Origin: Clostridia bacterium
GTDB taxonomy: Bacteria; Bacillota; Clostridia; Oscillospirales; UBA644
Length of the DNA: 60,572 bases
Assembly: GCA_017623595.1 (NCBI GenBank)
Contig: JAGAOU010000032.1
Location: 1-60,572, forward strand
Reading direction: 5' to 3'
This document shows positions 57,167 through 60,210 of the stretch, one piece after another. The first letter of the stretch is position 1, and each line of letters starts with the position of its first letter. Below the pieces are notes generated by a model that was given only the letters and a program-made list of their open reading frames with translations, did no database searches and was not told where the DNA came from. The position numbers and the translations under genes are program-made.

Positions 57167-58450
57167 TTAGACCCTTTCCTCGACAGGAACCTTTCGGGTG
57201 ATCTCCACCGATTCGATGCGACGATTTTTTACGGATGTAACATGTAAGATCAAATCTTCCGTCTCTACCGAAGGCGTGCTTCCATCCTCCGGAACAATTC
57301 CCAAAAGATCCAACACGCACCCCGCAAGGGTTTCATTCTCGCCCGATTGCAAGGTAACACCGAGAACTTTTTCCACCTCTTCGGGAGCGGCAGAACCATC
57401 CACCTGCCACACGTTTTCCGAAACCGCACGCACAGGAGAGCATGCTTCTCCGTGCAAGTCTCCCACCAAGAGATCAATTAAATCATGCAGCGTCACAATC
57501 CCCTGCATACCGCCGTACTCATCCACCACCACAGTAAACCGTTTTCCCCGCTTCTTCATCTCGGAAAAAAGAGCATCGGCTTTCATATGCTCGGGGACAC
57601 AGTACGCAGACTCCACAGAAGAGGCCATATCTCCTGTGCGGAAAAACCGCTTTGCATTGAGAACTCCCAAAAGATGATCCACATTATCACCGCAAACGGG
57701 GTAAAAGGAATATTCGGTGTTTTTCAGAATTTCCCTCCATGCGTCCTCACCGTCTTCTTGGTATAAAACCGTCAAATCACGACGGTGGGTACAGATTTCG
57801 GACACTTCCGTATCATCAAACTCAAAAATATTCCGAATCAGCTCACTTTCTTCCCGATCCAACGTTCCCTTTTCCTGCCCCGATTGAACAAGGATACGGA
57901 TGTCCTCTTCCGTAACGCCGTCATCCTTTTCATTGGGATCAATACGCATCAAACGAAGAACACCGTTGGTAACCTTGGTCAGGACCCAAACAAAAGGAGC
58001 AAAGGCCTTGGAGACAAAATACAGCAGCCCTGCCAACGCAAAGGCGGATTTGTCAGGATTTTTCATAGCCACCCGCTTGGGAACCAGTTCTCCGAACACG
58101 ATACTGAAAAAGGAGAGCAAAACGGTAATCAACAGCACGCAAATGCTGTCCAACGCCTCCGCAGACAGAGGAACTCCCCACGCCAACAACACCCCAACCA
58201 AAGGTCCTGAAAAATTTTCTGCAGCATAAGCACTGCCCAACAATCCGGCCAAGGTAATAGCAACCTGGATGGTGGAAAGAAAGCGGGAGGAATTCTCGGT
58301 CAATGCCAAAATCTTTTTGGCTTTTTTATTGCCCGCCTCTGCCGCCTGCTCGGTCCGTGCGGCATTGGAGGAAAGCACCGCAATTTCCGCAGAAGCAAAA
58401 ACCGCATTTAATACAATCAATACAATTTGTAACAGAATCGCGCCTATCAT
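57167..58450 (-). CDS. CNNM/CorC-type transporter (hemolysin-like, DUF21-CBS)
   Basis: These proteins move or sense Mg2+ or related divalent cations. The 427-residue product has a DUF21 membrane domain with about four helices (1-190), a pair of CBS domains (about 205-335), and a C-terminal CorC/HlyC domain (about 345-420: VWQVDGSAAPEEVEKVLG). A TTGAGGT site precedes the ATG. The transcript begins at 58640 or nearby and passes a leader ORF and a strong terminator, so it appears controlled by attenuation. Confidence 0.92.
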   Translation of the reverse strand: MIGAILLQIVLIVLNAVFASAEIAVLSSNAARTEQAAEAGNKKAKKILALTENSSRFLSTIQVAITLAGLLGSAYAAENFSGPLVGVLLAWGVPLSAEALDSICVLLITVLLSFFSIVFGELVPKRVAMKNPDKSAFALAGLLYFVSKAFAPFVWVLTKVTNGVLRLMRIDPNEKDDGVTEEDIRILVQSGQEKGTLDREESELIRNIFEFDDTEVSEICTHRRDLTVLYQEDGEDAWREILKNTEYSFYPVCGDNVDHLLGVLNAKRFFRTGDMASSVESAYCVPEHMKADALFSEMKKRGKRFTVVVDEYGGMQGIVTLHDLIDLLVGDLHGEACSPVRAVSENVWQVDGSAAPEEVEKVLGVTLQSGENETLAGCVLDLLGIVPEDGSTPSVETEDLILHVTSVKNRRIESVEITRKVPVEERV

Positions 58451-58490: not shown

Positions 58491-58533
58491 AAAAAAACGG
58501 ATATGCTCTATGGATTTCCACAGAGTATACCCG
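58491..58533 (-). terminator. Strong terminator in the CNNM leader
   Basis: Minus strand: a 16-base arm from CGGGTATAC to CTGTGG pairs with CCATAGAG to ATATCCG with one mismatch and two G-U pairs, followed by TTTTTTT. It lies about 40 bases before the CNNM start and four bases after the leader ORF stop, as expected for an attenuator. Confidence 0.9.
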
Positions 58534-58537
58534 AATA

Positions 58538-58630
58538 TTATTCACAGAAGAAGAGGATACATAACGGTAGATAAGGGGGCAATCCCCCGTATACTGCCGC
58601 AATCGTCCATTCCGTGTCACCGACTTTCAT
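58538..58630 (-). CDS. 30-residue Pro-containing leader peptide of the CNNM gene (putative)
   Basis: The ORF starts about ten bases after the predicted transcription start, reads MKVGDTEW at the N-terminus, has GGLPPYLPL in the middle, and ends CILFFCE before TAA. The PP codons (CCC CCT) pair with GGG GGA just upstream in a GGGGG/CCCCC stem. There is no good ribosome site, so translation would be near-leaderless. Its place before a likely Mg2+ transporter recalls MgtL-type leaders, in which Pro-rich nascent peptides destabilise ribosomes at low Mg2+. This is inference. Confidence 0.5.
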   Translation of the reverse strand: MKVGDTEWTIAAVYGGLPPYLPLCILFFCE

Positions 58631-58646
58631 GTTGTAATTTTTATCA

Positions 58647-58675
58647 ATTATATCATACTTTTTGAGGTTTGTCAA
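58647..58675 (-). promoter_or_regulatory. Promoter of the CNNM leader
   Basis: Minus strand reads TTGACA, 17 bases, TATAAT: a perfect promoter about 200 bases before the CNNM gene. Confidence 0.93.
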
Positions 58676-58719: not shown

Positions 58720-58748
58720 TAGACAAGCATCTTTATACCCATTATAAT
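58720..58748 (+). promoter_or_regulatory. Promoter of the GH39-like gene
   Basis: TAGACA, 17 bases, TATAAT, divergent from the CNNM promoter. Confidence 0.75.
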
Positions 58749-58776: not shown

Positions 58777-60210
58777 ATGGAACGCTTGATCCCTTGCGGA
58801 AAAATCAAAACGAAATCCGCCGCAGACATACACCACACCCGCCTCGGAATCGGCTTTGAAAAGCTGGATCGGAAGGCCTTTCAACCCGAAAAAGCATATG
58901 ACAAAATTGCCGCCCTGGGAATCCATTGGGTGCGCATCCAATCAGGATGGGCCCGATGCGAGAAGGAAAAGGGAGTCTACGATTTTGCATGGCTGGACGA
59001 GATCGTTAATTCTCTGCGTGCCCGCTCCATGAAGCCCTGGATTAACCTCTCCTACGGTAACGGACTCTACACCGAATGCGCCGTAACCTCCTTCGGCGGT
59101 GTAGGATGTCCACCCTTGAACAGCGAAGAAGCCATGACCGCATGGCTCGATTATGTAGATGCTCTGGTTCGCCATTTCGAAGGCCGTGTCTCCTACTATG
59201 AAATCTGGAATGAGCCCGATCTGGGCTACAGCTGGAAGCATGACGGCGAAGAAACACCCCGTCCCGATGCCTCGGAATACGGGGATTTTTGCCTCGCCAC
59301 CGCAAAAACCATCCACAACGCATCCCAAACCGCAAAGGTTATGGGTTTCGGTGTGGCAAACCTGACGAGACACCTGGACTTCATCGCAGAAGCGCTGGAA
59401 AAGGATTTGCTCCCCCATTTGGACGCAATCTCCTTTCACTCCTACACCACCGACGATTTCAACCGTTGCCGCCGCATCGAGGATCTAAGAAGCCTCTGCC
59501 GTGCGAAGGGAAAGGACGTAGAGATCATTCAAGGAGAAACGGGCGCCCAATCCCGCAGCGACGGCAGCGGCGCCATGCACCACTTCTCCTGGACCCCGGA
59601 AAAACAGTGCAAGCACCAGTTGCGTCACATGATCTGCGATTTTGCCGCAGACGTAACCTTCTCCTCCTATTTCACCACAGTGGATATGATGGAAGCCCTC
59701 CGCGGCAAGGTGGGAGACAAATCCTCCTATCTGGACTTTGGCTACTTCGGCGTTCTGGGCGCAGACTTCGATGAGGATGGCGTCGCCACAGGAAACTACA
59801 CTCCCAAGCCTTCTTATTATACACTGCAGAATTTAGCGGCAATCTTTGCGGAGGACTGGACGCCCGCCCAATTGCCCATTTCCCGCCAGGTTCTCCCCTC
59901 CCGCAGAGTCAACGGAGAGGATTGCAACGACATCACCTATATGGGCCACGGGTTCCGTCGCCCCGACGGCACAGCCGCCTATGCCTATTGGAATGCAGTT
60001 CCCCTGTTGACCCAAGCCTACGAGGGCACCGTCTCCTTCTTCGTGGCAACAAAGGAGAAAATCCGACTCATCGACCCCGTCTCGGGGAAGGTATATGCTA
60101 TCCCCGAATCCATGACCGAAGAAAAAATCGGCGGAACTCTGCTGAAAAACCTTCCCATCACCGACACCCCCCTCGTCCTCACCCTCGGCAATTTTGTCGA
60201 AACCGAATAA
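58777..60210 (+). CDS. GH39-like (clan A) glycoside hydrolase
   Basis: The 477-residue enzyme has a TIM barrel with IWNEPD (acid/base Glu146) and IIQGETG (nucleophile Glu254), then a C-terminal beta domain from about residue 370. This matches clan GH-A, nearest in my reading to GH39 beta-xylosidase/iduronidase-like enzymes. It has no signal peptide, so it acts on imported oligosaccharides. The exact family needs a profile search. It is monocistronic, between its own promoter and a terminator. Confidence 0.8.
   Translation: MERLIPCGKIKTKSAADIHHTRLGIGFEKLDRKAFQPEKAYDKIAALGIHWVRIQSGWARCEKEKGVYDFAWLDEIVNSLRARSMKPWINLSYGNGLYTECAVTSFGGVGCPPLNSEEAMTAWLDYVDALVRHFEGRVSYYEIWNEPDLGYSWKHDGEETPRPDASEYGDFCLATAKTIHNASQTAKVMGFGVANLTRHLDFIAEALEKDLLPHLDAISFHSYTTDDFNRCRRIEDLRSLCRAKGKDVEIIQGETGAQSRSDGSGAMHHFSWTPEKQCKHQLRHMICDFAADVTFSSYFTTVDMMEALRGKVGDKSSYLDFGYFGVLGADFDEDGVATGNYTPKPSYYTLQNLAAIFAEDWTPAQLPISRQVLPSRRVNGEDCNDITYMGHGFRRPDGTAAYAYWNAVPLLTQAYEGTVSFFVATKEKIRLIDPVSGKVYAIPESMTEEKIGGTLLKNLPITDTPLVLTLGNFVETE

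Follow-up and report, generated by a model that had tools for sequence, protein, structure and literature searches.

An acidic leader ORF upstream of CNNM/CorC genes in Clostridia: a probable transcription attenuator that may respond to Mg2+

How is a gene for a putative Mg2+ exporter controlled by the RNA that precedes it? In the window (the whole 60,572-nt stretch of clostridial DNA that we analysed), a leader RNA of about 150 nt lies between a promoter and a CNNM/CorC gene. How Firmicutes control Mg2+ export is not well understood. An earlier note on this DNA had proposed that a translated, MgtL-like leader and an attenuator precede a Mg2+ transport gene. Our analysis supports this kind of device but not the frame that had been named, a 30-codon ORF encoding GGLPPYLPL.

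The locus and its translated frame

Promoter, Shine-Dalgarno (SD) sequence with short ORF, intrinsic terminator and gene lie on one strand (Table 1), the general arrangement of a leader-peptide transcription attenuator. Much of the earlier description of the locus was accurate: the promoter is perfect; a strong terminator begins 4 nt after the stop of the 30-codon ORF; a GGGGG/CCCCC stem is present inside that ORF; and the gene product downstream is indeed of the CNNM/CorC type. Structures of its relatives are found in PDB entries 7m1t/7m1u and, for E. coli CorC, 4hg0. In a comparison of the leaders of three species, G002 and G003 preserve the -35 and most of the -10, and five pairs of the terminator stem show two-sided changes. 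The window leader folds at -49.8 kcal/mol (z -4.1; 0 of 200 dinucleotide shuffles were as good), largely because of the terminator.

Table 1. Features of the leader region and the gene that follows it, in window coordinates
Feature	Position	Strand	Basis
Promoter, sigma-70/A type, TTGACA-17-TATAAT, TG before -10	58647..58675	minus	12/12 consensus
SD GGTGA of the leader ORF, 6 nt 5' of ATG	58617..58621	minus	kept in G002, G003 and G124
Leader ORF MDDCGSIRGIAPLSTVMYPLLL, ATG 58610, stop TGA 58542	58542..58610	minus	conservation, pN/pS, in-frame AGT
Intrinsic terminator stem-loop, 8 nt 3' of the leader stop	58498..58533	minus	folding
Terminator U-run (U7)	58491..58497	minus	sequence
CNNM/CorC gene, putative Mg2+ exporter	57167..58450	minus	Pfam CNNM + CBS + CorC_HlyC
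30-codon ORF MKVGDTEWTIAAVYGGLPPYLPLCILFFCE, ATG 58630, stop TAA 58538, other frame, judged non-functional	58538..58630	minus	lacks an SD; frame without a start codon in G124; not kept in relatives

The 30-codon ORF exists and, as had been remarked when it was proposed, has no ribosome site, which is itself a clue that it is not the translated one. In the corresponding frame of G124, a genome from a different family of the same order, there is no start codon, and in two congeneric leaders (GRGQTPSLRVHTICFVK, GRGQTPSLPMHTICFCK) the Pro codons are mostly gone. When the upstream regions of CNNM relatives were aligned, this ORF was not kept, whereas another one, starting at 58610 in the +1 frame relative to it, was. 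This second ORF is short (22 codons), acidic and previously unannotated; it starts with MDD and is preceded by an SD.

The same leader precedes the orthologous CNNM genes (63% identity) of two congeneric genomes, and a covariance model made from these two and the window leader picked up a fourth in G124, directly upstream of CNNM. All four leaders share the SD GGTGA, a spacing of 6-7 nt and an ATG within GGATGGACG or GGAATGGACG, and in each of them the stop comes 7-8 nt 5' of the terminator stem; besides the window peptide MDDCGSIRGIAPLSTVMYPLLL, they encode MDDCGSRAGADPIPSGAYHLFR (G002), MDGCGSRTGADPLPPDAYHLLL (G003) and MDDGGSTDAEDDNFALLVLHLIL (G124). Over codons 2-10, pN/pS across 17 non-independent leader pairs is 0.48 in the frame of the 58610 ORF against 1.21 and 1.13 in the other two, the frame of the 30-codon ORF being at about 1.2. 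Together with the in-frame AGT triplets and the acidic-ORF test described below, this identifies the 58610 ORF as conserved coding sequence. From this conservation we infer that it is translated, and it is almost certainly the genuine leader.

On the other side of the leader promoter, we observed an adjoining divergent near-consensus promoter (TAGACA-17-TATAAT, window 58720-58748, plus strand), which belongs to the plus-strand gene at 58777-60210, itself probably a glycoside hydrolase by eye.

Spread and codon signature across Clostridia

Our survey of the sequence 5' of CNNM genes took in 79 from the order and 48 from elsewhere in the class, and then a phylum sample. In the resulting hand-curated list, short SD-preceded ORFs with acidic N-termini stand upstream of CNNM in 48/79 and 27/48 cases, respectively; by our own count from the family columns, they span about 25 families, 11 of the order and 14 others. 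An acidic leader ORF before the same gene recurs in many gut Clostridia, as exemplified by MDDGDSNAPAKPPS (L054), MDAGDSSPDPSRCN (L037), MDSCDSSDGPRR (L017), MSDGDPGAGN (L069), MDDSPLPERSKQY (L121), MDDIPEDIRSSRALC (L147) and MDDDIGDEGSSR (L180), while roughly 40% of the sampled CNNM genes have no recognisable leader. Frame, acidic N-terminus, SD and the overlap or near-contact of the ORF end with the terminator are, judging from the sequences, conserved upstream of CNNM in many families of Clostridia.

An uncurated test covered 131 dereplicated regions from the order, class and phylum samples, scoring SD-preceded ORFs with at least three Asp/Glu in residues 2-10. Fifty-five regions, which are not independent trials because they are related by descent, were positive, against a mean of 2.9 and a maximum of 7 in dinucleotide shuffles; the opposite strand gave 0, and control windows from the same loci 21/1361. 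We also scanned 709 kb of loci chosen around CNNM and MgtE genes, a scan that speaks to position and not to genome-wide specificity, and the ORF type occurred only upstream of CNNM or MgtE, plus one chance locus.

Codon usage carries the same reading frame through the wider set. Within codons 2-16, 87 of the 91 AGT triplets of the CNNM leaders are in frame, as are 29/31 in the leaders of MgtE genes; further downstream in the CNNM leaders, they fall 13/13/12 across the frames. Asp codons number 154 within codons 2-16 and 9 in the remainder, and Asp and Gly codons vary synonymously among leaders. Over the same leader codons, AGT accounts for 116/232 Ser codons and CGA for 54/113 Arg codons, compared with 11% and 8%, respectively, in the CNNM genes that follow. 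Our guess is that this preference reflects slow or wobble decoding.

Beyond the genus, only SD, ATG, codon pattern and terminator remain, and among 295 genomes the covariance model of the genus leaders brought one more convincing member. A 27-bit match in G294 was rejected as essentially a terminator match; we also discarded two non-genus pattern matches among 394 genomes, which lie inside a kinase-like coding gene (GIDVGGST codons). A contig pattern scan recovered the two congeneric records, which come from Clostridia of the water deer cecum; its other match, on a Dehalococcoidia contig, we judged to be due to chance. Searches of the open-access literature yielded no description of such a peptide ahead of CNNM/CorC or MgtE genes in this class.

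Other CNNM genes of these genomes carry different leaders. A tandem CNNM pair in the window genome (L020 1290-1460, G000:C10; also L019, L021 and L022) is preceded by a leader with MGDHPRSSQDDCIIKHDTYHIGRF, which starts with GTG or TTG, and with a terminator and a stretch of some 24 nt that four genomes have in common; this leader has no Rfam match. At L011 300-480 (G001), a more distant CNNM gene of the same genus has the leader MDPLPRSRSTVGKPFPYRRPVLYLML, whose start resembles MgtL, with no obvious terminator.

Terminator geometry, proposed mechanism and alternatives

A terminator was detected in 65/75 leaders, and some of those scored as terminator-free (L035, L077) show an obvious hairpin by eye. 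The ORF stops 0-20 nt before the stem in 14 of the terminator-bearing leaders, stops inside the hairpin in 35 and runs through it in 15. Since the stop is just before, inside or beyond the hairpin in 64/65, finished translation should block termination; in those leaders whose ORF continues past the hairpin, terminator and translating ribosome would be mutually exclusive, so that completed translation would favour read-through, and it is by this reasoning that we fix the regulatory sign. In the window, the stop codon is 8 nt 5' of the stem, and a ribosome positioned on it would reach no further than the stem base. The RNA polymerase of Firmicutes may outrun ribosomes, and blocking of the terminator by the ribosome would then weaken. 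On this geometry and its conservation, the 58610 ORF very probably works as an attenuator.

In one family (L076, L083-L086), the acidic CNNM leader is kept and the terminator seems lost or weakened, so another mode, translational or Rho-dependent, may act there. The terminator arms are similar across families (GGCATAGCCTG...CAGGCTATGCCTTTTTGCG), beyond what a terminator requires. Two further RNA elements were set aside: long-range base pairing between GAATGGACG and the 3' arm of the terminator, present in the genus with no counterpart seen in G124, and the GGGGG/CCCCC stem as an aptamer or Pro sensor, which lies inside the ORF in the genus only.

By analogy with its homologue MpfA, which acts in Mg2+ export in S. 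aureus (PMC5122736, PMC6711546), the CNNM/CorC protein of the window is most likely a Mg2+ exporter, and the regulatory sign should therefore oppose that of mgtL-mgtA. We propose that RNA polymerase would start near 58640 and that a ribosome would load at GGTGA and translate the 22-codon leader. A ribosome completing the leader would cover or melt the terminator, allowing transcription of the CNNM gene, while early dissociation would let the terminator form and switch the exporter off. Early dissociation would be an intrinsic destabilisation of the ribosome by the N-terminal acidic, often Asp-Pro, nascent chain; being strongest at low cytosolic Mg2+, it would keep the exporter off at low and on at high Mg2+.

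Several precedents exist for the individual steps. Translating ribosomes are destabilised by acidic and Asp-Pro stretches close to the N-terminus of the nascent chain, an effect that is stronger at low Mg2+; in MgtL, EPDP makes ribosomes drop off at low Mg2+, and the mgtA importer is thereby turned on (PMC11282234). In Salmonella mgtQ, too, acidic residues play a part (PMC8092293), and Salmonella corC is induced by high Mg2+, its own N-terminus having been reported as an IRD sequence (PMC12421838). Overall, a translation-dependent transcription attenuator that senses Mg2+ through ribosome drop-off on the acidic leader is, in our opinion, probably the best explanation, and we lean towards Mg2+-dependent ribosome destabilisation as the signal that the leader reads. 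The group as a whole has the acidic/proline N-terminal chain of the MgtL family (MDDSPLPER, MDDGDSNAP, MDAGDSSPDPSR); the window copy is weaker, with only two acidic residues (two Asp) and two prolines, and its destabilising strength is thus uncertain. If the proposal is true, ribosome-based Mg2+ sensing has evolved for export too, and outside Enterobacteria, and the leader set provides natural variants for finding which nascent-chain and codon features sense Mg2+.

Other readings of the leader were considered. Within the genus, the block CGGAATGGACGNTTGNGGCAGTA is nearly invariant, synonymous sites included, and the leader folds well, as would be expected if the block belonged to the aptamer of an unknown metal riboswitch and the ORF were incidental. 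We regard this as very unlikely, since so little of the RNA persists outside the genus, where the coding pattern recurs in about 25 families and the genus covariance model reached one convincing member, and since the pN/pS values and AGT triplets are specific to one frame. A search for known metal riboswitches with covariance models, which the earlier note had suggested, brought no match to the M-box or other Rfam metal riboswitches; at gathering and permissive thresholds, Rfam families gave nothing but chance matches.

The codon signature could also be that of a classical amino-acid attenuator sensing charged tRNA for Asp, Ser, Arg or Pro, given Asp- and Ser-rich leaders with strongly preferred AGT and CGA codons. 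However, the genes are Mg2+ transporters and not biosynthetic, the dominance of Asp is restricted to the vicinity of the N-terminus, and a ribosome stalled early in the ORF would not keep the terminator from forming, so that starvation would shut the gene down, contrary to the classical sign; such an attenuator is in our judgement improbable. We would give somewhat more weight, although we still find it unlikely, to a general gauge of translation capacity, with the exporter made only under efficient translation and Mg2+ as one of several inputs: the geometry ties the completion of any ORF to read-through, and the conserved AGT/CGA choice suggests that decoding speed matters. Such a gauge would need no conserved acidic N-terminus, and the association is with Mg2+ transport genes only, though the searched loci were picked around such genes.

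MgtE leaders and likeness to known systems

As a specificity control, we examined the MgtE importers of the order, and none of their 29 leader regions had an ORF with at least three acidic residues. Many MgtE genes carry their own conserved leader (MDAGSS..PRS), in which the SD is strong and the codons AGT AGT and CGA AGT recur, as in L206 (MDAGSSTAGTVPRSRQ, strong SD), L207, L213, L219 and L223; MDGSCERSMDYGF precedes the MgtE gene of the window genome itself (L222, G000:C71). From these sequences, the acidic N-terminus appears to separate exporter from importer leaders, and an MD..SS/CGA-AGT core to be common to both. The MgtE leaders are related to those of CNNM genes although less acidic, so the signal may involve more than acidity. 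One may tentatively picture a single leader-peptide family as the Mg2+ sensor of Clostridia for both CNNM exporters and MgtE importers, oppositely wired and acting via ribosome stability on the acidic N-terminal chain and wobble-codon decoding (AGU Ser, CGA Arg), a possibility that we rate as somewhat less likely than not. Such a family could explain why most sampled MgtE loci lack an M-box, which is present in 2/20 MgtE loci of the order.

The closest parallel in design is MgtL of Enterobacteria, where a short leader ORF with an acidic/Pro N-terminus also precedes a Mg2+ transport gene (mgtA) and the outcome of translation decides transcription. MgtL, however, serves an importer that is on at low Mg2+ and relies on a Rho-dependent terminator; the clostridial leader precedes a CNNM exporter gene, has an intrinsic terminator that overlaps or touches the ORF end and is predicted to work with the opposite sign. 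CorC/YbeX belongs to the same transporter superfamily, and its D/S-rich N-terminus (MSDDNSHSSD in E. coli) is near leader L132, MSDDDSDSSNLINLI (MSDDDSDSSN); its link, as an IRD sequence, to high-Mg2+ induction rests on PMC12421838. There, the acidic stretch is the protein's own N-terminus, whereas in Clostridia it is a separate leader with a terminator. The Salmonella uORFs MgtQ, MgtP and MgtM likewise precede Mg2+ transport genes and are tuned by acidic or Pro codons (PMC8092293), but with other genes and RNA architectures, and in Enterobacteria only.

The M-box (ykoK, RF00380) shares with the leader described here the transcription attenuation of Mg2+ transport genes in Firmicutes, but is an RNA aptamer. 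At L209 211-552, an M-box riboswitch is followed by the leader ORF MDTDSHRRNRISRY before MgtE, a possible case of tandem control.
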